IMG/VR virus record: IMGVR_UViG_3300035211_000089 | Span: 1-46,523 of that record | Direction: 5' to 3' (one strand) | DNA length: 46,523 nt | DNA from: a virus | In this document: positions 74-46,523 of the stretch, one piece after another | How positions within the stretch are numbered: the first letter of the stretch is position 1 | Layout of the letters: each line of letters opens with the position of its first letter | Program-made: the position numbers and the translations under genes | Notes under the pieces: generated by a model | Seen by the model: the letters and a program-made list of their open reading frames with translations, nothing else | What the model was told of the DNA's origin: nothing | Database searches by the model: none

Positions 74-127
74 TTGGACTGAAAATCCGTGTGTCCGCAG
101 TTCAATTCTGCGGGGCGCCACTTTTTT
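74..127 (+). other. attP core: 3' half of a tRNA-Phe(GAA) gene
   Basis: The segment reads as the 3' half of tRNA-Phe. The anticodon loop CTGAAAA with anticodon GAA is at 79-85, the 3' anticodon stem TCCGT at 86-90, the variable loop at 91-95, the T-arm CGCAG/TTCAATT/CTGCG at 96-112, the 3' acceptor strand GGGCGCC at 113-119, discriminator A at 120, then C and six Ts (122-127). No D-arm or 5' acceptor strand lies upstream, and the 5' anticodon stem (TTGGA) pairs only in part, so identity to the host gene probably begins near 76. This is the expected form of attP for a phage that integrates by the anticodon arm and rebuilds the tRNA gene. CCA is not encoded. It is not a working tRNA gene in this form. 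Confidence 0.88.
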
Positions 128-520: not shown

Positions 521-1645
521 TCAGTATGTCAATTTCGACACTGTATTCTTCAAATGATCCGGCGACAGGTGCGCGTAGATCATGGTCGTTTTGATATCAG
601 AATGTCCCAACAGCTCCTGGACGGCTTTCAGGTCGGCGCCGGCCATGACCAGGTGACTCGCGAAGGTGTGCCGGAAGGTGTGCGGGTGAGCATGACCAAT
701 GGAGCAGCTCTGCAGGATCCTCTCGAGGATATGGTACCATCGGCTGCCGGTCAGCATCGGTTCGTTGTTGCCATTATCGAAGACATACCGGCCGGCCCGG
801 GGCAGAGCCTTCAGGACCTGGCGCAGTTGCGGATTGATCGGAATGTCCCGCTTGCGGCCGCTCTTGGTGTGTCCGACGACGGCGATCTTGTTGCGCTTCA
901 GATCGACAGACTTCCACTTCAGCCCGATCAGCTCGGACAGTCTCATGCCGGTATAGGCCAGGACCTTGAAAAAGGCCACCTGGGTCGGCGGCAGTTCTTT
1001 CTCCATGGTGTTGAACAGTCGCTTCAGCTCGGATTTCGAGAAGTAGCGCACGTCTTTGGTGCTGTGCGAGCGGCGATCGACTTTGAATTCGTCGCGGCCG
1101 GCAAGAAGGTTGGACTGCATGTAGCCGCGGCCTTCGGCCGAACACCACCTGAAGAAAGCCGACAGGATCAGCCGGTGTTTCTCCCAGGTCGCCCGACGGT
1201 TGCCTGGTCGACGGCTCTGGCCGGCGCGGTAGTGATTGGCGCCCGGCTTCAGGTAGTAGAGCTGGTAGTTGCGAAGATCCCGCAACGTGATGTCCGCGGC
1301 CGATCGAATAGAGGTATGTTTGAGTGACCACCGCACGAAGAAGTCCAGGCGATTCTGGTCAGATCGGATCGTGCTCGCTCGCTTCTTCCCTGTGACTTCA
1401 CACCAGGAGAGGTACTCTCGTACCTGGTCGACCAGCGGAGGCCTCTCAGCGGCGCCCAGGGAGTTCTGAGCCCCACTGTAGATAACATCATCGATGAATT
1501 GCTGACAGGCCAGGAGGGCGCCGGAGGAACCGCCGTATTGATCGTCGGGAAATCGTTTCTGAAAGCGCCGGCCGTCGAGCATCTTCAGCACCTGCCAGCC
1601 GGTACGGTTTCCGGAAGTGTATCTCCTGGGCTCAGCTCGTTTCAT
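521..1645 (-). CDS. int: Tyrosine-recombinase integrase
   Basis: Site-specific recombinase that would join attP to the host tRNA-Phe attB site. The 374-residue protein carries the full catalytic set: R235 (in TGMRLSEL), K261 (HTKSGRKRD), H322 and R325 (HTFRHTF), H348 (LLGHSD) and nucleophile Y357 (TTMIYAHL). The N-terminal 60 or so residues are an arm-binding-type segment, followed by a core-binding helical domain at about 70-170. The ATG at 1645 overlaps the TGA of the upstream lipoprotein gene (ATGA), so translation is probably coupled. The gene is the last of a repressor-lipoprotein-integrase operon, which is unusual because it would place integrase under the lysogenic promoter. It reads toward the attP arms. 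Confidence 0.96.
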   Translation of the reverse strand: MKRAEPRRYTSGNRTGWQVLKMLDGRRFQKRFPDDQYGGSSGALLACQQFIDDVIYSGAQNSLGAAERPPLVDQVREYLSWCEVTGKKRASTIRSDQNRLDFFVRWSLKHTSIRSAADITLRDLRNYQLYYLKPGANHYRAGQSRRPGNRRATWEKHRLILSAFFRWCSAEGRGYMQSNLLAGRDEFKVDRRSHSTKDVRYFSKSELKRLFNTMEKELPPTQVAFFKVLAYTGMRLSELIGLKWKSVDLKRNKIAVVGHTKSGRKRDIPINPQLRQVLKALPRAGRYVFDNGNNEPMLTGSRWYHILERILQSCSIGHAHPHTFRHTFASHLVMAGADLKAVQELLGHSDIKTTMIYAHLSPDHLKNTVSKLTY

Positions 1646-2067
1646 TGGCTTTCGAAAAAGACCTTAACCTGGCCACTTGAGAGGGTGTCATAGCTGGTAG
1701 TAGCAATTCGGACGTAGAGCCAGGTTTCGCCGGGGAACGGAATCTCCGCTTGGAAGGTGATAGAGCCGGAGACGTCGCAAAAGGCAGAGCCCCAACTTGG
1801 GGTGCTGCCAAATCGGTAGAGATTTACTGTCTGTGCCGGCAGATCTTTCGGATAGGCAACTGTCACAAGAAAAGGCTCGTCTACGGTCAGGGTATCGCCT
1901 TGACCAGGTGCTATGATTCGGAGGGGAGTCGACCAGTCGGGCCAGGTCGAATCACTGTTGCAATCCCCACTGACTATCACGTCGGGACAGTCGCAGTCTT
2001 CGCTGCAACCTGGAATCAGACAGGCGGCCAGAGCCAAGATAATTAGAGTTGAGACCTTTGAGTTCAT
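1642..2067 (-). CDS. Predicted lipoprotein in the lysogeny operon
   Basis: A 141-residue protein with a lipoprotein signal: short basic start (MNSK), hydrophobic stretch, lipobox LIPGC with the lipid-bearing Cys at 21, then a Cys/Asp-rich linker (SEDCDCPD). The rest (about 45-140) is beta-rich and resembles a single Ig-like domain. The start at 2067 has a GGGGGGA ribosome-binding site; the frame stays open upstream but runs into the repressor gene. It starts 16 bp after the repressor stop and overlaps the integrase start, so it should be made in the lysogen. Lipoproteins in this position in other temperate phages (for example Ltp of TP-J34) exclude superinfecting phages; that role is an inference from position. 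I recognise no specific family. Confidence 0.85.
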   Translation of the reverse strand: MNSKVSTLIILALAACLIPGCSEDCDCPDVIVSGDCNSDSTWPDWSTPLRIIAPGQGDTLTVDEPFLVTVAYPKDLPAQTVNLYRFGSTPSWGSAFCDVSGSITFQAEIPFPGETWLYVRIATTSYDTLSSGQVKVFFESQ

Positions 2068-2083: not shown

Positions 2084-2461
2084 TTACTTCTTTTGTTTTG
2101 AGGCGCTTTCCCTGGCCTCGGGATCCTCAATGCCGAGTATGTCGAGGATGGTTCGTCGTTTATGGTGATCGGGCGGCAGATCGGCGATGGCCTCGAATAT
2201 TCGCCGATCGTGGTCGGAGGCTTTGGCCAGGAGCGCTTCGAGGTCCTTGAAGGCCGGGTCGCCGGTCAGCTCTGAGATGGACGTTTTCAGAGCTCTCGCC
2301 AGGGCCTGCAATTTCAGGAAGCCGATGCCATCCGAGTCGCGCTCACCCTTGAGGATACGGTACATGTGCTGCTTACTGATTTTAGCTTTAGCCGCCAATG
2401 TTGCACCGTTCAGCCCAAGCTCGGCCATACGACGCTGAATATTGTTCTGAAGTCTGCTCAT
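2084..2461 (-). CDS. XRE-family repressor, probably leaderless
   Basis: Likely master lysogeny repressor. The N-terminal 65 or so residues form an XRE/Cro-C1 helix-turn-helix (LNGATLAAKAKISKQHMYRI), followed by a short helical C-terminus; there is no LexA-type peptidase domain. An in-frame ATG at 2470 would add three residues but lies inside the -10 box of the only good promoter and has no Shine-Dalgarno. From that promoter the transcript should begin within a base or two of the ATG at 2461, giving a leaderless mRNA like lambda cI from PRM. First gene of the repressor-lipoprotein-integrase operon. Without a self-cleavage domain, induction must act by another route. Confidence 0.88.
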   Translation of the reverse strand: MSRLQNNIQRRMAELGLNGATLAAKAKISKQHMYRILKGERDSDGIGFLKLQALARALKTSISELTGDPAFKDLEALLAKASDHDRRIFEAIADLPPDHHKRRTILDILGIEDPEARESASKQKK

Positions 2462-2468
2462 CGACAAC

Positions 2469-2497
2469 ATTATATAAAGGAATCACGAAAAAGTGAA
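2469..2497 (-). promoter_or_regulatory. Leftward lysogeny promoter (PRM-like)
   Basis: On the minus strand there is TTCACT (-35, 2497-2492), a 17-bp spacer and a perfect TATAAT (-10, 2474-2469). Transcription should start near 2462, immediately before the ATG at 2461. It drives repressor, lipoprotein and integrase. Confidence 0.72.
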
Positions 2498-2527
2498 AAG
2501 GTTTTAGAAAAAAAGAGTAAAAAGTTG

Positions 2528-2556
2528 TTGACAAAGAGTCGCCAGAAGGCTACTAT
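2528..2556 (+). promoter_or_regulatory. Rightward early promoter (PR-like)
   Basis: Perfect -35 TTGACA (2528-2533), 17-bp spacer, -10 TACTAT (2551-2556). It would drive the HTH gene at 2634 and the long early operon. The operator copy at 2536-2555 covers the spacer and nearly all of the -10, so a bound repressor would block polymerase. Confidence 0.75.
2536..2555. promoter_or_regulatory. Operator O1 (dyad AGTnGCCnnnnGGCnACT)
   Basis: The dyad AGT-C-GCC-AGAA-GGC-T-ACT lies inside the rightward promoter. The same dyad recurs at 2599-2618 with a different 4-bp centre (TATT), so the half-sites are conserved while the middle is not, as expected for a dimeric HTH repressor operator. Centre-to-centre spacing of the two copies is 63 bp, six helical turns. 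Confidence 0.74.
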
Positions 2557-2565
2557 TACCGATAG

Positions 2566-2591
2566 AGAGAGTAAGGAGTGCTCTCTTTTTT
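2566..2591 (+). terminator. Short hairpin with U-tract between the operators
   Basis: AGAGAG (2566-2571), a 9-base loop and CTCTCT (2581-2586), then a run of Ts to 2591. The stem is only 6 bp, so it would be a weak terminator or attenuator. It lies downstream of the rightward promoter and upstream of the first early gene, where it could lower basal transcription or be an antitermination point. Confidence 0.45.
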
Positions 2592-2598
2592 GGGTACG

Positions 2599-2618
2599 GA
2601 GTCGCCTATTGGCTACTC
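2599..2618. promoter_or_regulatory. Operator O2 (second copy of the dyad)
   Basis: GAGT-C-GCC-TATT-GGC-T-ACTC, a perfect match to the O1 half-sites with one extra base pair of symmetry at each end. It sits in the leader of the early transcript just upstream of the ribosome-binding site (AAGGAG, 2623-2628) of the gene at 2634. Being on the same face of the helix as O1, it could support cooperative binding or a small loop. Confidence 0.74.
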
Positions 2619-2633
2619 TTACAAGGAGATACG

Positions 2634-2918
2634 ATGAAAGCAAGAACGCACACCCTCAAGCGGACCAGGAGCGGGGAGTTCAAGGAGGCGCCCCTGTTCC
2701 TGGATAGCCAGTGTTACAGCCCGGAGCAGATTGCGGAAATCGCCGGCATTTCGGTCAGGTCGGTCTACAACCGCCGGCATCGTCTACTCCGAAGCATCTT
2801 TGCCCCGAAGAGGATCCCGAAATATCTGCCGGGCGCCTGGGTCAAGTGGATGCTCCGCAACACCACGGTGCCGGAAGGGGATGAACTCAAACGGATGAAG
2901 GCGGTCGCGGCCGCATAG
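2634..2918 (+). CDS. Small helix-turn-helix protein, first early gene
   Basis: A 94-residue basic protein with a helix-turn-helix at about 32-55 (SPEQIAEIAGISVRSVYNRR) that resembles the DNA-binding part of recombinase- or excisionase-like regulators. Start chosen by AAGGAG 5 bp upstream. Being the first gene under the repressed rightward promoter, it fits a Cro-like, CII-like or excisionase role; the sequence does not say which. The rest of the protein (KRIPKYLPGAWVKWML) shows no other domain I recognise. Confidence 0.8.
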   Translation: MKARTHTLKRTRSGEFKEAPLFLDSQCYSPEQIAEIAGISVRSVYNRRHRLLRSIFAPKRIPKYLPGAWVKWMLRNTTVPEGDELKRMKAVAAA

Positions 2919-2931
2919 GGGGGATGGAGAA

Positions 2932-3063
2932 ATGAGGCATCAGTTTTTGTCACTGTGCGACTGGCTGTTCGACGAGAAGCGGTCAGCCAGGTTCGGCCGG
3001 TGGCTTATCGGAATCACGGTTTTGTATTTCGGCCTGCACATAGCGTGCTGGGCCATAAAATGA
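2932..3063 (+). CDS. 43-residue small membrane protein
   Basis: A short open frame between two early genes that fills an otherwise empty gap. It starts with ATG behind a GGAGA motif and ends with TGA at 3061-3063, directly ahead of the next gene's ribosome-binding site. The product has a charged N-terminal half (CDWLFDEKRSARFGRW) and one hydrophobic segment near the C-terminus (LIGITVLYFGLHIACWAI), so it is probably a single-pass inner-membrane peptide. Small membrane proteins in early phage operons can be host-takeover or exclusion factors; no specific function is recognisable. Confidence 0.55.
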   Translation: MRHQFLSLCDWLFDEKRSARFGRWLIGITVLYFGLHIACWAIK

Positions 3064-3074
3064 AGGAGGCTCCC

Positions 3075-3809
3075 ATGCCAACTGTAACGATCGAATCAGA
3101 TGGTCGCACCGACCACCTGGACGGGCCGGACGCTGAGGCCCTGCTTGAATCCCTGCGAAAAGACTACGGGATCGATGTCGAATCAGAGGCGACGCTCAAT
3201 GTTGGGACGGCGCCCGAGACGGTTCGATGCCACCGTGGCCACGAATCCGACCGGCGGCTCTGGAATTGCCCGGTCTGCACCGACCACCATATCGAGGTTA
3301 TCGCGGAGCTGATACAGTCCGTGGAAGGGCAGGGCGTAGCTATTGACGAGTTGTTCAAGGAGCTCGGACGTAAGAGCGTGGCCGATTGGAGTATCGTAAA
3401 CTCGAACTTGGTTGACGCGAACAAGGCTATCGCAAAGGCCAAGCGCCTCAGAGACGCGAGCGAGTACGAGCCCGAGGGCCGGTACGTGGTCGAAATGTCG
3501 TCCGAGTACAACGCGGGCGGTCCGATCATCGCCATTGAGGGCTCGCATCCGATTGCCGTCATGTTCGTCGATTGGGACTGTGTAAACGATGAAACCAGGG
3601 CTGCAGTGGTCGCCGAAGCTCAGTTCCTGGCGACGTCTGGGAACATCTACAAAGGGGAGAAGCCGAAACCCGAGGCTCTGGCCTGGCTGAAGAAGACCTG
3701 CCCGATCTGTGGCGAGACCTTCGACTACCGAGAAGACTACGAGCCGAAGACCTGCAACAAGTCGGAGTGTCAGCGTCAGTTCCTGCACGGCAGGAAGGGG
3801 ATAGTGTGA
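3075..3809 (+). CDS. Hypothetical early protein with two Cys clusters
   Basis: A 244-residue protein. The frame is open from 2955, but the ATG at 3075 follows a perfect AAGGAGG at 3063-3069, so that start is used. One cysteine/histidine group lies in the first third (CHRGH...CPVC) and a second at the C-terminus (CPIC, then CNKSEC), each of which could bind zinc. The middle contains a helical stretch rich in Lys and Arg. I do not recognise the family. The stop overlaps the next ATG by one base, so it is part of the early operon. Confidence 0.72.
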   Translation: MPTVTIESDGRTDHLDGPDAEALLESLRKDYGIDVESEATLNVGTAPETVRCHRGHESDRRLWNCPVCTDHHIEVIAELIQSVEGQGVAIDELFKELGRKSVADWSIVNSNLVDANKAIAKAKRLRDASEYEPEGRYVVEMSSEYNAGGPIIAIEGSHPIAVMFVDWDCVNDETRAAVVAEAQFLATSGNIYKGEKPKPEALAWLKKTCPICGETFDYREDYEPKTCNKSECQRQFLHGRKGIV

Positions 3810-4258: not shown

Positions 4259-5260
4259 ATGCAAGCAGTATCAGCACAAGAATTGTTGGTCCAAAGCGCC
4301 ACCGAACAGGCGCAAAAGACCATTGAGGAACGAAAGAAGTTCCTCGAGGAAAGGAAGTCCGGTCTCGGCGGGACCGATGCTGGCGCCGTCTGTGGGCTCT
4401 CCCGCTGGAAGTCGCCCATGGACATATACCTGGAAAAGACCGGCGTAGTCGAGGACATCACGCCCTCAGAGGCAATGATATGGGGAACGATCCAGGAGGA
4501 AATCATCGCCCGGCACTATGCCAACGTCACCGGCCGGAAGCTCCGGCGCCCGACCGGCTGTTTCCGTCACAAGGACTATCCGTGGATGATCGCTCACCTG
4601 GACCGGATCATCCTCAACGAAAACCGGGGCCTCGAAGTGAAAACTTCCAGTCAGTTCATGGCCGACGAGTGGGGCGAGTCAGGGACTGACGAGGTTCCGG
4701 AGTATTACCGCGCCCAGGTCATGCACTACATGGCGATCAAGGGCTATCCATCGATGGACCTGGCGGTCCTGATCGGTGGTAACGACTTCCGTATCTACAC
4801 GATCGAGCGGGACCTTACCTACATCGCCAACCTGGTCGAGCTCGAGCGGGACTTCTGGCAGGAACACGTTCTTTCGAGAATACCGCCCGATGTCGATGCC
4901 TCAAAGGCCTGCTCGAACGCCCTGGCCAAACTCTACGACCGTCCGGAAGGTATCGAGGTCCTGGCCACTCCCGAGATCGACGAAATCGCACAGCGTCTTC
5001 GCCAGGTGAAGGCGCTCATGAAGCAGAACGAAGAAGACAAGCGGCTGCTCGAGAACAGCATCAAGAAGTTCATGGGCAACGCCGAGAAGCTGATCGGCGC
5101 CGACTGGCATATCACCTGGAAGGTCGGCAGCCGGCGCCAGTTCGACGTCAAGGCTTTCCGTGCGGCCGAGCCCGAGCTGGCCGAGCAGTATACCAACGTG
5201 ACCGAAACCAGGACGTTTCGGCCTAACTTCAGCAAAAAGGAAGGGGAGAAAAGGAATTGA
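4259..5260 (+). CDS. YqaJ-family recombination exonuclease
   Basis: Lambda-exonuclease-like nuclease that would resect dsDNA ends 5'-to-3' and hand the single strand to the RecT annealase encoded nearby. In the 333-residue protein, GGTDAGAVCGLS (37-48) is the family's N-terminal motif, E80 follows IWGTIQ, D115 lies in AHLDR, E126 and K128 in LEVKTS, and Q153 in YYRAQVMHY; together these form the PD-(D/E)XK core. A helical C-terminus (about 215-275) follows. The ATG at 4259 is chosen over 4223 because GGGAAG precedes it and the previous gene ends at 4254. The stop overlaps the TTG start of the next gene. Confidence 0.92.
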   Translation: MQAVSAQELLVQSATEQAQKTIEERKKFLEERKSGLGGTDAGAVCGLSRWKSPMDIYLEKTGVVEDITPSEAMIWGTIQEEIIARHYANVTGRKLRRPTGCFRHKDYPWMIAHLDRIILNENRGLEVKTSSQFMADEWGESGTDEVPEYYRAQVMHYMAIKGYPSMDLAVLIGGNDFRIYTIERDLTYIANLVELERDFWQEHVLSRIPPDVDASKACSNALAKLYDRPEGIEVLATPEIDEIAQRLRQVKALMKQNEEDKRLLENSIKKFMGNAEKLIGADWHITWKVGSRRQFDVKAFRAAEPELAEQYTNVTETRTFRPNFSKKEGEKRN

Positions 5261-5985
5261 TTCCTCACAAAGTCTGCTATTTCGATTTGGAAACGGGTGG
5301 TCTCGACCCTCAGAAGCATGGAGTCGTACAGATCGCCATGCTGGTCGAGGTCCGCGGCCAAGTTGTCGGCGAGAAGATGTGGTACGTCAACCCGTACTCA
5401 GGCGACCGGATAGAACCGGACGCTCTGGCCGTCAACAAGCTGAGCCTCGAGCAGGTGCGGTCGTTTCCCAAGGCCCAGGCCGTACTCGGCCAGGTCAAGG
5501 AGTTCCTGGCACAGTACGTCGATCGCTACAACACTTTTGACAAGTTCACGCCGGCCGGTTACAATGTGCAGTTCGACCTGAATTTCCTGAAGCAGTTCTT
5601 CCTCAAAGGGGGAGATTCGTTCTTCGGGGCCTGGTTCAACTACCGGATGGTGGATCCGATGCAGTTTCTGTACTGGCTCCGCCTGGCCGGCGAGATCGAC
5701 TTGCCCAACTACAAGCTCGAGACTGTCTGCGCTCACTTCGACATTCCGCTCGGAGAGGCGGCGCACGACGCCCTGGCCGACATTAAGGCCACCCGTGACC
5801 TGATAAGACACCTGCACAATCTGTATCTGAAAGGAGACGATGATAGCGATGGCGAACAATGTCAATCCCAACGAGAAGGCGGTCGCAAAGAGGCCGATGG
5901 ACAACCTGAAGGGGTTGTTGGAGAAGGCCAGGCCGGCCCTGGCTCAGGCGCTCCCGCGGCATCTGACACCCGATCGGCTGATTAA
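5257..5985 (+). CDS. DEDDh 3'-5' exonuclease (DnaQ-like)
   Basis: A 242-residue protein with all DEDDh motifs: D10 and E12 (YFDLETGG), D107 (QFDLNF), H170 and D175 (HDALADIKATRD). Such enzymes remove nucleotides from 3' ends, as in proofreading or recombination. It starts at TTG overlapping the YqaJ stop (TTGA), with AAAAGGAA just upstream. The nuclease fold ends near residue 195. The remaining 50 residues (Gly/Asp/Glu-rich, low complexity) are read from the same DNA as the RecT N-terminus, a 146-bp overlap. The position between exonuclease and annealase suggests a three-part recombination set. Confidence 0.9.
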   Translation: MIPHKVCYFDLETGGLDPQKHGVVQIAMLVEVRGQVVGEKMWYVNPYSGDRIEPDALAVNKLSLEQVRSFPKAQAVLGQVKEFLAQYVDRYNTFDKFTPAGYNVQFDLNFLKQFFLKGGDSFFGAWFNYRMVDPMQFLYWLRLAGEIDLPNYKLETVCAHFDIPLGEAAHDALADIKATRDLIRHLHNLYLKGDDDSDGEQCQSQREGGRKEADGQPEGVVGEGQAGPGSGAPAASDTRSAD

Positions 5986-7036
5986 GATCGCCCTGACCGC
6001 GGCGACACGAAACCCGGTCCTGCTCCAGGCCGACCAGAAATCGCTTTTGCGGTCGATCATGCAGTCGGCTCAGCTCGGGCTCGAGCCTGATACTCCGCTC
6101 GGTGAGAGCTATCTGGTGCCGTTCCGCAACAACAAGCGGGGCTGTATGGAGGTCCAGATGATTCCGGGGTACCGCGGCCTTATCAAGCTGGCCCGGCAAT
6201 CGGAGGAAATCAGCGGAGTTGACGCCCAGGTCGTCTACGAAAAGGACGACTTCGAGCTGGAGTTTGGTCTTCAGCAGAAGCTCGTCCACAAGCCCTACCT
6301 GGACGGCGAACGGGGGAAAACGCGGCTGTTCTACGCAATCGTCAGGTCGAAGACCCTGGAAGCCGAGCCGATCATCGAGCTCATGACTCTGGATCAGATC
6401 GACGCTATTCGCAAGCGGTCAAAGGCTGGGCAAAACGGGCCCTGGGTCACCGACTACGAAGAAATGGGGCGCAAGACTGTTATCAAGCGGGCCCTGAAGC
6501 GGGCGCCGATGTCGACGGAGCTCTGGACGGCTATCAGCTTGGACAATCAGGCCGAAGACGGCGAGCCGCAGACGATCGACATTGATCCGGAGATCCTCGG
6601 CGACGAGAAGACGGCCGACGAGACCGAGGCCACGGCCACCGAAAAGGCGGGCAAGCAGATCGAGAACAAGGTCAACGGCAACGGTGACCCTGAAGCCAGG
6701 CAGCGGGTGCGCGAGACGAAGATGCAGCAGCTTTTGAGCCTCAAGCGCGACGAGCTGAACCAGATGGCGATAACGGCGGTGGGTGAGGTCTTCGGTGATG
6801 ATCTGCCGGCCGCTGACAACTTCCTCGAGTCCTGCAGTCAGACCAAGGACGAATCCGGTGTCGAGATTCTGGCCGACGCCGAGATCACTTCAGGCAAGAA
6901 CAACAAGGGGAATATCGTGCGGTTACTGCTGAAGCTCGAGGATCTGAAGACAGATTCCGGCGGCCAGGAGGAACCGGATCCCGAGCTCAACCTGGGCGAG
7001 GGTAAGCCGGAACCGGCGGAGGCCACGGCATCATGA
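5840..7036 (+). CDS. recT: RecT-family single-strand annealing protein
   Basis: Annealase that coats the single strand made by the YqaJ nuclease and pairs it with complementary DNA. Residues about 15-225 match the RecT core (LRSIMQSAQLGLEPDTPLGE, then MIPGYRGLIKLARQS and KTVIKRALKRAP). The C-terminal 170 residues are acidic and low in complexity, a possible protein-binding tail. Start: the ATG at 5840 is 3 bp from AAGGAG; an ATG at 5849 is the alternative, with a 12-bp gap. The first 49 codons overlap the end of the exonuclease gene in another frame. The stop overlaps the next gene (ATGA). Confidence 0.93.
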   Translation: MIAMANNVNPNEKAVAKRPMDNLKGLLEKARPALAQALPRHLTPDRLIKIALTAATRNPVLLQADQKSLLRSIMQSAQLGLEPDTPLGESYLVPFRNNKRGCMEVQMIPGYRGLIKLARQSEEISGVDAQVVYEKDDFELEFGLQQKLVHKPYLDGERGKTRLFYAIVRSKTLEAEPIIELMTLDQIDAIRKRSKAGQNGPWVTDYEEMGRKTVIKRALKRAPMSTELWTAISLDNQAEDGEPQTIDIDPEILGDEKTADETEATATEKAGKQIENKVNGNGDPEARQRVRETKMQQLLSLKRDELNQMAITAVGEVFGDDLPAADNFLESCSQTKDESGVEILADAEITSGKNNKGNIVRLLLKLEDLKTDSGGQEEPDPELNLGEGKPEPAEATAS

Positions 7037-13197: not shown

Positions 13198-13713
13198 ATG
13201 TCGCGAGATGTCGCTGTTCGCAGCAAAGGAAAGCCTGATCGTAATGAGCCGGATGCCCGAAAGTGGTGGGTTTATATCCAGTGGATTACCGGCGTCCGCA
13301 CAGCAGAGCTGGCGGCGCAACTAAAGGTCAACCAGAGGACTATTCAGCGATGGATCGATCAAGTCAAGATGCAGCTCGAGGCCGTGCCGGAATTCGATCG
13401 AGCCCAGGACTACATGGAGGATATGGTCAAGCCGGCCATGCAGGTGTATCGGATGCACCTGGCCAAGGGCAACTGGCGAGTGGCGACGAAGATCCTCGAG
13501 CGGTTCGGCCTGGCCGGCCAAGTTCAGGACCGGGGCGACTCCATGTACCGAAAGACCGATATCGAGCTCCTGGTGGAGGTACTGACGCTTGTCCAACAAT
13601 CAGGTGACAGCCGAGCTCTTGGAGAAGTTAGGAGACTTCTCGTTAAGTCTTCCACGACAAGTGAGGCGCGTACTCCAGCGAAACACAGTCGAGCTAAAAA
13701 GAAGAAGACGTGA
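13198..13713 (+). CDS. terS: Terminase small subunit (TerS)
   Basis: Recognises the packaging site on phage DNA and loads it onto TerL. The 171-residue protein has an N-terminal helix-turn-helix (ITGVRTAELAAQLKVNQRTI), a helical middle for ring assembly and a Lys-rich C-terminus. No Shine-Dalgarno precedes ATG 13198; a TATAGT hexamer at 13187-13192 would put a transcript start near the ATG, but its -35 is poor. The last 125 bp overlap the start of terL in another frame. Confidence 0.82.
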   Translation: MSRDVAVRSKGKPDRNEPDARKWWVYIQWITGVRTAELAAQLKVNQRTIQRWIDQVKMQLEAVPEFDRAQDYMEDMVKPAMQVYRMHLAKGNWRVATKILERFGLAGQVQDRGDSMYRKTDIELLVEVLTLVQQSGDSRALGEVRRLLVKSSTTSEARTPAKHSRAKKKKT

Positions 13714-15166
13714 AGAACGGATTCGATATTGGAGACCGACCGAGCCACCGTTCAATGACCAGAAGGCCGCTTATGAGTGCACGCGGAAGTTTCAATATGT
13801 TGGAGGCGGTAACCGATCAGGGAAGACCGAATTAGGATGGGCAAAGGCATACGATTTCTGCATGGGGCGCCACCCGACGCTTTCCCCAGACCGACCGCCA
13901 CCGGTGTTCGGTCGATATTGCGGTACCACCTGGGAAGACGGCATCAAAGAAGTAATCCTCAAGAAGGCCCAGAGCATGACCAGGCGTGCAGACCTATACG
14001 GGGGATCCTGGGACACGGCTTGGAGCGAGAAGTCACGCACGCTGACCTTCTGCCTGGACGGAGACATCCGAGTCAGGGGCTCACAGATTCGGTTCTACAC
14101 GTACGAGCAGAAGCTCTCCACCTACGGGGGCGACGATCTGGACTTCGTGATAATGGACGAGCACGGCATAAAGGCCTACTTCAACGAGAACATCGCCCGT
14201 CTGGTCGATCGAGACGGCTGGATTCTACTGACCGAGACGCCAGAGTGCGGCATCACCTGGGAAGACGAGGAAATCCTGCAGCGAGCGATCGACATGGACC
14301 CGGACTACGGGGTGTGGATATTCGACTCGGAGCTCAATCCGCATCTGAGCAAGAAAGGACTTCAGGCTCTCATAAAAACGGTCGGCAAAGATTCGGAGCT
14401 CTACAAGGCGAAGATCAAAGGGCAGATGGTCGCGCTACAGGGATTGGTGTACCCGATGTTTAAGGAACAGACTCACGTAATCCAGGAGTTCGAGATCCCG
14501 ACGTCAAAACGCTGGCATCGCCAGTGCATCATGGACGCCCACAAGAAGAAGGGGTGTATGCTGCTGTGGTTGGCCTGGAGCCCCGATCGGAGCCACGTCT
14601 ACGCCTATCGGGAGGCAACCTGGAAACCAAACAAAGGAGGCATCGAGGACCTGGCTGCTTTCATCCGGGCAAAGTGTGCTGGCGAGAAAATCAACGATTG
14701 GATTATGGATGAGTCCCTGGGCGGGACACCAAAGCCAGGGGAGTATGACATCTTCGGGCTCGAGGGTGTCATCGATCAACTAAACGACCTGGGCCTGCCT
14801 TTTGTCGGCACGAACGTCAATTCCGATAAGGCAGTCGAGGCTGGCATCATAAAGGTTAAGCAGTTCCTGCGTGTGGATCCGGTCACGGGTGATACCAGGC
14901 TGAAAATCTTCCAATGCTGCACCACGCTGATTAAGCAACTACAGATTTATCAGTACCGAAAAGAGAAGCCGGCCGACGAAGAAGTCTATCGGGAGCTGAT
15001 AAAAAAGATCAAAGATGATTTTCCGGACGATCTTCGATATGGCATTATGGCTGAACCATCGCCATTGATGCCCGAGCCACAGAAGATGGACTATGACCTT
15101 GATACGGGAGCGCCGTTATATCCGCAGGATCCTGACGGCGGCCCGGAGTTTGATTTGGAAGTATAG
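13589..15166 (+). CDS. terL: Terminase large subunit (TerL)
   Basis: Packaging motor ATPase and nuclease. In the 525-residue protein GGGNRSGKT (72-80) is the Walker A motif and LDFVIMDE (184-191) the Walker B with catalytic Glu; the RNase H-like nuclease domain follows from about 310. The start is TTG 13589, with GGTGGAGG 9 bp upstream, so its N-terminal 40 residues are encoded over the end of terS. No ATG occurs before the Walker A. Headful (pac) packaging would fit the circular assembly, but the sequence does not prove it. Confidence 0.93.
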   Translation: MSNNQVTAELLEKLGDFSLSLPRQVRRVLQRNTVELKRRRREERIRYWRPTEPPFNDQKAAYECTRKFQYVGGGNRSGKTELGWAKAYDFCMGRHPTLSPDRPPPVFGRYCGTTWEDGIKEVILKKAQSMTRRADLYGGSWDTAWSEKSRTLTFCLDGDIRVRGSQIRFYTYEQKLSTYGGDDLDFVIMDEHGIKAYFNENIARLVDRDGWILLTETPECGITWEDEEILQRAIDMDPDYGVWIFDSELNPHLSKKGLQALIKTVGKDSELYKAKIKGQMVALQGLVYPMFKEQTHVIQEFEIPTSKRWHRQCIMDAHKKKGCMLLWLAWSPDRSHVYAYREATWKPNKGGIEDLAAFIRAKCAGEKINDWIMDESLGGTPKPGEYDIFGLEGVIDQLNDLGLPFVGTNVNSDKAVEAGIIKVKQFLRVDPVTGDTRLKIFQCCTTLIKQLQIYQYRKEKPADEEVYRELIKKIKDDFPDDLRYGIMAEPSPLMPEPQKMDYDLDTGAPLYPQDPDGGPEFDLEV

Positions 15167-45249: not shown

Positions 45250-46421
45250 AGCAGGTCATTCACCGTGCCGACCTGCTCATCAAGAAGGCGGACTACCCTG
45301 GAGCGCTACGTGCGCTCCGGGGTGTTTCATTCAAGCATCTCCCGTCTCAATATAGATCACTGCTCAAATTGCTGCAGGGGATGGAGCTTTCGGGCTCGGG
45401 ACAATTTAGCAGGGCGATCCAGGAATTCCTCGAAGCGGCTGTCGGCTTTCAATCGCTCGGTGACGTCCGCGAGGCCGCAGCGATCGACGCCATGGCTTAT
45501 GCTCAATCGCAGATGGGGGAGTTTAACGCTGCCGAGAGAAATTACCTCAAAGCGATCGGAGTCTACCGAACCGCCGGCGATAGAGAACGGGAAGCAAGGG
45601 TTGCACACAATCTGGCGTATTTCTACCTGGAGAAAGGAAGCCTCGAGATGGCGCTCGATACCTACGCCGGTTACCCCCTTAGCCGTGCTGACGTAGGCGC
45701 TCCCATTTTCAACAACTATTGCCTGAATCTCTCGATCGGTTACTTGATGCAAGGGAGAATCTACTCCGCCGGACAGACGCTTACCGAGTGCGTTCCGAAT
45801 GTTGAAGGCGACACCCGCGAGCAGTGCCTCTATAACCGGATCGGCGGTCAAATTTCCCTCGCGACCGGTCATACAGAAAAGGCAATCAAGTTATTGCAGT
45901 TGGCCTGTCATATTTCTGAGCACATATCAGGCAGCCGCGACCTGTTACCGGGCTGCTACCGATGGCTGGCCGAAGCGCTCGTTCAACAGGCAATCGAAAT
46001 TCCGGCCGCAAATGATCGCTGGCTGCAGGATGCTCGAACATCTGCCTTGACAGGCCTGCGGGTAGCCATAACTCAGGCTGACCGTTGGGAAATCGGCGCC
46101 GGCAAGCGCGTCCTGGCAGTCATCGCATCCAGGCGGGGAGAGATCCGGACAGGGAAACGACTGTTCGAAGAAGCCCTGAGCCTTTTCAAGCGGCGAGGCT
46201 TTCGCTATGAGCTCGCCATGACTCAGTTCGCGGCCGCGAGATCGGGGTTGTTTTCGAATGTTGTGGCTGACGCCATGCTGATACAGGCCGAGCAATACTG
46301 CGCCCAGGAAGATGTCCAGTTTGTTCGCTCCCGTATTCACCGCATGACGTGCCTGCTTCGGGAGATTGCCGAAAGCCCTGCGGGGCTGAAAGACGTCGGC
46401 CTCTCGACCCTCAATTGCTGA
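45222..46421 (+). CDS. TPR-repeat protein beside attP
   Basis: A 399-residue cytoplasmic protein made almost wholly of TPR-like helical pairs (GDVREAAAIDAMAYAQSQMG, ERNYLKAIGVYRTAGDRERE, ARVAHNLAYFYLEKG). It has no helix-turn-helix, signal or membrane span. TPR proteins without a DNA-binding domain, such as Rap receptors, can bind small peptides. No ribosome-binding site precedes the ATG, so translation may be coupled to the overlapping exported-protein gene. Its stop lies within the integrase arm site at attP. The cargo position at the end of the genome suggests a lysogen-expressed accessory gene. Confidence 0.75.
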   Translation: MRIHADTAVEQVIHRADLLIKKADYPGALRALRGVSFKHLPSQYRSLLKLLQGMELSGSGQFSRAIQEFLEAAVGFQSLGDVREAAAIDAMAYAQSQMGEFNAAERNYLKAIGVYRTAGDREREARVAHNLAYFYLEKGSLEMALDTYAGYPLSRADVGAPIFNNYCLNLSIGYLMQGRIYSAGQTLTECVPNVEGDTREQCLYNRIGGQISLATGHTEKAIKLLQLACHISEHISGSRDLLPGCYRWLAEALVQQAIEIPAANDRWLQDARTSALTGLRVAITQADRWEIGAGKRVLAVIASRRGEIRTGKRLFEEALSLFKRRGFRYELAMTQFAAARSGLFSNVVADAMLIQAEQYCAQEDVQFVRSRIHRMTCLLREIAESPAGLKDVGLSTLNC

Positions 46422-46523
46422 AGTTTCACGTGAAAAACCGACTAAGTGCCTGTCCTGCAATCCCCCCTGTTGGACTGAAAATCCGTGTGTCCGCAGTTCA
46501 ATTCTGCGGGGCGCCACTTTTTT
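46397..46523. repeat. Right copy of the 127-bp terminal direct repeat
   Basis: Exact duplicate of bases 1-127. The last 25 bases of the TPR gene (stop at 46419-46421) run into it, so the end of that gene and the attP arm site overlap. Joining the ends here gives a 46,396-bp circle in which the TPR gene, attP and the integrase gene follow one another without a break. Confidence 0.93.

Follow-up and report, generated by a model that had tools for sequence, protein, structure and literature searches.

Two putative operators with identical half-sites, placed six helical turns apart between a repressor gene and a divergent early operon, raise the question of whether their spacing is part of the way in which the repressor works. 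They are found in the IMG/VR record IMGVR_UViG_3300035211_000089, a virus record of 46,523 bases that was analysed at its full length (hereafter the window).

The phage and its likely host

The window has an exact 127-bp terminal repeat (1-127 and 46397-46523), so the genome is probably circular. The repeat contains the 3' end of a tRNA-Phe gene, and the record probably represents the circular genome or the excised prophage of a Zixibacteria phage. The genes and sites at the left end are:

76..126, plus strand: attP-like core, 3' part of tRNA-Phe(GAA), identical to Zixibacteria tRNA-Phe
521..1645, minus strand: tyrosine integrase
1642-2064, minus strand: lipoprotein-like gene, flanked by the repressor and integrase genes, same strand as the repressor
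2084..2461, minus strand: repressor, 125 aa from ATG 2461, Cro/C1-type HTH, no Shine-Dalgarno motif
2623..2628, plus strand: Shine-Dalgarno motif AAGGAG of the first early gene
2634..2918, plus strand: first early gene, 94-aa putative HTH protein

The order of integrase, lipoprotein-like gene and HTH repressor (all on the minus strand), followed by a rightward early operon encoding the 94-aa putative HTH protein, RecE, an exonuclease and RecT, is the usual one for a temperate phage. Integrase, HTH repressor, divergent RecE/exonuclease/RecT genes and a tRNA-Phe attachment core together identify a temperate phage immunity region. The lipoprotein-like gene has no Pfam match and is a candidate lysogenic gene; some streptococcal phages carry a superinfection-exclusion lipoprotein at the equivalent place, between repressor and integrase.

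Identity with host tRNA genes sets in precisely at the anticodon stem; in several cases it extends into the T tract behind the tRNA, as would be expected of an attachment core. A degenerate tRNA-Phe pattern matched 46 stretches in genome_contigs, all of them in host-side records titled MAG. Of these, 33 were titled Zixibacteria or Zixiibacteriota, and the other 13 GN15 (1), Eisenbacteria (2), Calditrichota (1), UBP14 (1), FCB group (1) or only "bacterium" (7). Because the attP-like core is a tRNA-Phe 3' end matching that phylum, it points to a host in the candidate phylum Zixibacteria. The switch belongs to a phage whose likely hosts are represented by metagenome assemblies only. In locus L032 the tRNA-Phe 3' end occurs twice (5349-5393 and 6066-6110, 717 bp apart), with only the first copy within a complete tRNA gene; this duplication is what an integrated element has left behind.

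The phage is remote from the isolates compared, with no phage record exceeding about 28% identity to its large terminase subunit (13589-15166). No relatives of the terminase were found in viral_contigs, and the first 25 kb of the window have no near match in phages. RecE has one remote relative and matches in 3 of 132 Zixibacteria genomes, none of them with a twin-operator switch.

The repressor matches HTH_26 with 28.2 bits against a cut-off of 22, which places it among the Cro/C1-type HTH proteins, and related repressors match HTH_3 and HTH_26 above cut-off. The lambda repressor carries a C-terminal protease-like domain, its cI transcript starts at its AUG, and its dimers cooperate. In the 128-aa repressor frame of the window no Pfam match lies past the N-terminal HTH, and the C-terminal S24 protease-like domain of a lambda-type CI was not found. 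Direct searches returned no relatives of the repressor in viral_contigs, genome_contigs or phages, and no solved structure was matched. Single-sequence AlphaFold models were poor (pLDDT 58 for the repressor, 55 for the first early protein), the former too poor to reveal a tetramer surface. The best Pfam match of the first early protein, Sigma70_r4_2, is below cut-off; no relatives of it were found in viral_contigs, and a relative adjoins the switch of the Zixibacteria locus L144 (31% identity over 55 aa). No anti-repressor was recognised among the neighbouring genes.

Divergent promoters and the predicted repressor start

The region between the repressor and the early operon contains:

2469..2497, minus strand: repressor promoter, TTCACT-17-TATAAT, 10/12
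2490..2525, plus strand: A-tract-rich stretch, 78% AT, just upstream of the PR -35 box; UP-element-like by resemblance only
2528..2556, plus strand: early promoter PR, TTGACA (2528-2533)-17-TACTAT (2551-2556), 10/12; +1 expected near 2562-2564
2537..2554, no strand: putative operator O1, AGTCGCCAGAAGGCTACT, within the early promoter, 18 bp from the start of the -35 box to the operator centre
2600..2617, no strand: putative operator O2, AGTCGCCTATTGGCTACT, within the leader of the early transcript, 63 bp from O1 centre to centre

Six promoter-like sites scoring at least 10/12 occur on the two strands of the whole 46.5-kb window, and two of them sit here back to back, facing their genes; the two sites in the locally scanned region compare with 1.2 expected and are not above chance. 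The most AT-rich 70-mer of the window begins at 2466. From the position of its promoter, the early transcript is predicted to start near 2562-2564.

On the minus strand, the sequence-only reading had used a perfect TATAAT to place the repressor start at the ATG itself, and the promoter position agrees with this. ATG 2461 lies 8 bases after TATAAT without a Shine-Dalgarno-like motif, and the position of the box predicts a transcript start at 2461-2462, i.e. at the ATG. Most early and structural frames of the phage have a Shine-Dalgarno motif, unlike the repressor. Promoter position and absent Shine-Dalgarno motif thus agree on a leaderless-looking transcript. We infer the start at 2461, since the longest repressor frame opens at ATG 2470, which overlaps the -10 box.

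Twin dyads

The window has just two copies of the dyad AGTCGCC-N4-GGCTACT, at 2537-2554 and 2600-2617. O1 and O2 agree in all 14 arm bases and differ in the central four; both dyads are as first described, with identical half-sites, different centres and 63 bp between them. O1 lies in the spacer of the early promoter and covers the first four bases of its -10 box. A scan of the window found no further site with one mismatch and a single site with two. When twin dyads were sought with 7-bp arms, at most one mismatch and at most 200 bp between copies, the real window gave one match and 40 whole-window shuffles gave none; within the 163-bp intergenic region, 1 of 20,000 shuffles contained a pair. 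Judged from this locus alone, however, the reading of 63 bp as six turns is not significant.

In the right operator (OR) of lambda, three adjacent operators are present, one of them placed to activate and to shut the repressor's own promoter. Such an arrangement was not found here: 2401-2718 contains just two sites with fewer than five mismatches to the operator, and none of this quality overlaps the repressor promoter. Autoregulation is therefore not readable from the sequence. The description of the locus as a full, compact switch stands as regards the paired operators and the leaderless-looking repressor gene, but goes beyond the evidence in that the repressor promoter lacks an operator, binding by the repressor and both transcript starts are predictions, and the hairpin is not conserved as such.

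Related loci in Zixibacteria

The 132 Zixibacteria genomes were searched with the integrase, with the first early protein and then with a profile (A3) of five repressors, which yielded four informative loci. The integrase search gave 126 matches, and the surroundings of 70 were taken, with preference for longer frames and lower E-values. Of the loci covered by a repressor-profile scan, only the window, L144, L146 and L051 (G082) gave close repressors, and the last of them has no twin dyad. The operators of the four informative loci are:

L144, interval from repressor to early genes: TAATGAATTCATTA and TAAGGAATTCCTTA, 63 bp apart; TTGACA-16-TATATT has the first of them in its spacer
L146: ATATAACAGATGTTATAT and ATATAACAGGTGTAATAT, 61 bp apart; the first within TTGACA-17-TATATT
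L228/L260: TAACGAGTTCGTTA and TAACGAATTCGTTA, 63 bp apart
L227/L259: AACGAGTTCGTT and AACGAAGTCGTT, 62 bp apart

It had been proposed to look for the dyad in relatives. The exact double operator is absent from viral_contigs and from all 132 Zixibacteria genomes, whereas the geometry recurs with changed operators. A TAACGA-type double operator was likewise absent from viral_contigs, none of six viral loci with distant repressors and other hosts has twin dyads, and alignment A4 gave no matches in 20 genomes of G044's phylum.

The gene order of the window recurs in L144, with an integrase, HTH repressors and the relative of the first early protein, and tRNA-Leu genes lie near the integrases of L144 and L146. 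By eye, L259 adjoins a type I modification-like gene and L260 lies near a serine-recombinase-like gene. In these two non-phage loci the gene divergent from the repressor (6215-6862 in L259, 5646-6323 in L260) encodes homologous exported-looking proteins, 39% identical and without Pfam match. Because this divergent gene is not phage-like, the geometry seems to be the repressor's own. A Shine-Dalgarno motif of the repressor is absent in four of the five loci; in L146 the sequence GGAG precedes the start, which is hence not leaderless.

Conserved spacing between diverged operators

In all five loci 17-18 bp separate the start of the -35 box from the centre of O1, and the centre of O2 follows 61-63 bp further on, at about +43 to +46. 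The spacing corresponds to 5.8-6.0 turns at 10.5 bp per turn, which places both operators on the same face of the DNA. The window statistics and this common geometry bear out the earlier placement of one operator over the rightward promoter and of the other in the early leader. By eye, the next start codon follows O2 at a variable distance. The operator sequences are of three kinds, and the DNA between the operators has 8-21 identical bases of 43-45 in pairwise comparison of the five loci.

The best twin dyad was recorded, regardless of spacing, in 12 upstream regions of the family. In the window, L144, L146 and L260 the twin dyads (63, 63, 61 and 63 bp apart) were each beaten by none of 300 shuffles; L259 (G089) is under the palindrome threshold and is counted only since its operators match those of L260 (G029). 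The remaining seven regions have no twin dyad (the second and third repressors of L144, G066, two in G095, G082 and G078). Two of these repressors are second in an operon or distant; the third repressor of L144 and two others are straightforward negatives.

A scan of 1.66 Mb for a promoter-embedded dyad repeated 20-200 bp downstream gave 11 distinct matches, four of them at 61-63 bp and the other seven at 21, 42, 84, 99, 99, 116 and 132 bp. The reversed control gave six matches, one of which is L050 itself, which recurs because palindromes survive reversal. For four uniform distances (20-200 bp) to fall within a 3-bp span, P is about 1e-5, with the loci treated as independent though they are homologous. 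The first threshold of the scan missed L144, which loosened versions recover; the looser scan gave 20 matches, compared with 24 in the reversed sequence and 8-15 in local shuffles, so that its total is not above background and only its ranking and spacing are informative. A motif search for the L260-type pair in the 132 genomes, allowing 48-78 bp, returned nothing beyond the two copies already known, with spacings of 62 and 63 bp.

The spacing could have been inherited within one family instead of being kept by selection. All five repressors are homologous and from one phylum, as would be expected if the spacing were a non-functional relic of the common descent of one regulatory cassette. Yet in some pairs of loci the operators and the intervening 43-45 bp have near-random identity by now (8/43 to 11/45), while the length has changed by no more than 2 bp, and we regard a relic as quite improbable.

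The more alike two operators are, the more alike are the recognition-helix regions of their repressors (Spearman 0.86 for 10 pairs that are not independent). For this reason the repressor, rather than the first early protein, is taken to be what binds the dyads. As a putative HTH protein with a relative in L144, the 94-aa first early protein might itself bind them in the manner of a Cro or an excisionase. This is very improbable: L259 and L260 share the geometry and a homologous repressor, yet their divergent gene encodes an exported-looking protein, and the operators track the recognition region of the repressor.

The early leader

Two elements lie between the operators:

2564..2588, plus strand: hairpin with which the early transcript would begin, 10-bp stem, -11.1 kcal/mol, z -3.0
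2586..2591, plus strand: T6 tract

The short hairpin with U-tract described by the sequence-only reading is therefore present, but it was not listed by the terminator scan and is not conserved as a hairpin, being by eye not evident in the leaders of L144 and L260. A purine run followed by a T tract after the promoter is found in L144 (twice) and L146 and is absent in L260. Hairpin and T tract may serve as a bend, an early terminator or a stabiliser of the 5' end.

If O2 and the hairpin worked in RNA, by termination or by translational control through leader structure, the dyad would be incidental. The leader does fold into two hairpins, the first with its z of -3.0 and U tract, and T tracts recur in L144 and L146. 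The z for the whole leader, however, is just -1.44, and Rfam gave nothing credible and no match above chance. Moreover, O1 lies upstream of the expected start and is not transcribed, and yet has the same arms, including a C/T mismatch that weakens an RNA stem. We hold a role in RNA to be highly unlikely.

Four early promoters have the purine run and T tract where their transcripts are expected to begin, namely at 2560-2591 in the window, at 5154-5123 and about 2643-2615 on the minus strand of L144, and at about 6258-6283 in L146. The second L144 promoter with these elements has no clear twin dyad. A search for the leader pattern gave matches in 7 of the 132 genomes, among them G013 and G092.

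Proposed mechanism

The region as a whole probably controls lysis and lysogeny in a temperate phage of Zixibacteria, by means of a repressor made from a leaderless transcript whose dimers on O1 and O2 touch across six turns. The repressor transcript would start at or beside its own AUG, and the 125-aa product would bind as dimers to the two identical-armed operators. A dimer on O1 would sit in the early promoter, with the -35 box on one side and the -10 box on the other, and exclude RNA polymerase. A second dimer on O2, six turns downstream on the same face, would contact the first over a short bent or looped stretch. The pair would hold tighter than either dimer alone and would also obstruct elongation. 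A naked loop of 63 bp is stiff, and bending would be needed.

The two operators might also act independently, with O1 blocking initiation and O2 serving as a roadblock to the elongating polymerase, the dimers not being in contact. The centre of O2 at about +43 to +46 in five loci is a place where a bound protein could hinder elongation, and such sites (stoperators) are mentioned for mycobacteriophage L5 in a report on phage BPs (PMC4557955). A roadblock needs no fixed helical phase; the spacing nonetheless stays at 61-63 bp while operators and intervening DNA change, and independent action is in our view unlikely.

All parts of the proposed switch, with dimers in contact across six turns, are of known kinds, and what goes beyond the ordinary is the conserved ruler across diverged operators. 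The chances seem to us slightly short of even that the five loci represent a family of Zixibacteria phage and island repressors with a fixed operator ruler (core promoter plus about six turns downstream), kept through complete turnover of operators and regulated genes. The purine run and T tract may there act as a bend, an early pause or a terminator.

Comparison with known switches

The locus resembles lambda OR in its divergent repressor and early promoters with an operator over the early promoter, and it may share with it a repressor start at the AUG and cooperating dimers. It differs in having two sites six turns apart, a short repressor and no operator at the repressor promoter. Cooperation of dimers over helical turns has mostly been approached with engineered lambda and lac constructs. 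Hochschild and Ptashne in 1986 reportedly found that lambda repressor cooperates on operators five or six turns apart in an engineered arrangement; the spacing is an integral number of turns in both cases, and here the arrangement is natural and conserved, and cooperation would follow by analogy.

Three further systems are compared. RcoLS20 of the Bacillus plasmid pLS20 is a proven tetramer; its two operators, each with several binding motifs, lie 75 bp apart, and a phase-dependent loop forms across a bent spacer (PMC4207663). It is likewise an HTH repressor, and of its operators one is found where the promoters diverge and the other beyond the main promoter (PMC4207663), whereas the present locus belongs to a phage and has single dyads 61-63 bp apart. 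The repressor gp33 of mycobacteriophage BPs is also short and has an operator that, like O1 here, is flanked by the -35 and -10 boxes of its early promoter, and a second operator in the same intergenic region (PMC4557955). In BPs, however, the second operator is beside the repressor promoter, the half-site design is asymmetric and immunity is integration-dependent (PMC4557955). In PY54 a leaderless repressor mRNA was mapped by RACE, a likeness that is here predicted from promoter position; PY54 differs in that cro is leaderless as well and in having a single operator (PMC4488713). A literature search, with most subscription journals outside its reach, found neither a natural phage switch whose two operators stand at a conserved distance of six turns nor a paper on the regulation of Zixibacteria phages.

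If the proposed mechanism is true, five natural repressor variants with diverged operators and one spacing are a ready experiment on dimer cooperation across six turns, and recognition rules could be read from the five repressor-operator pairs. As a minor observation, L144 encodes three related HTH repressors within 3.3 kb (2759-3112, 5239-5646 and 5674-6012), two of them in tandem.
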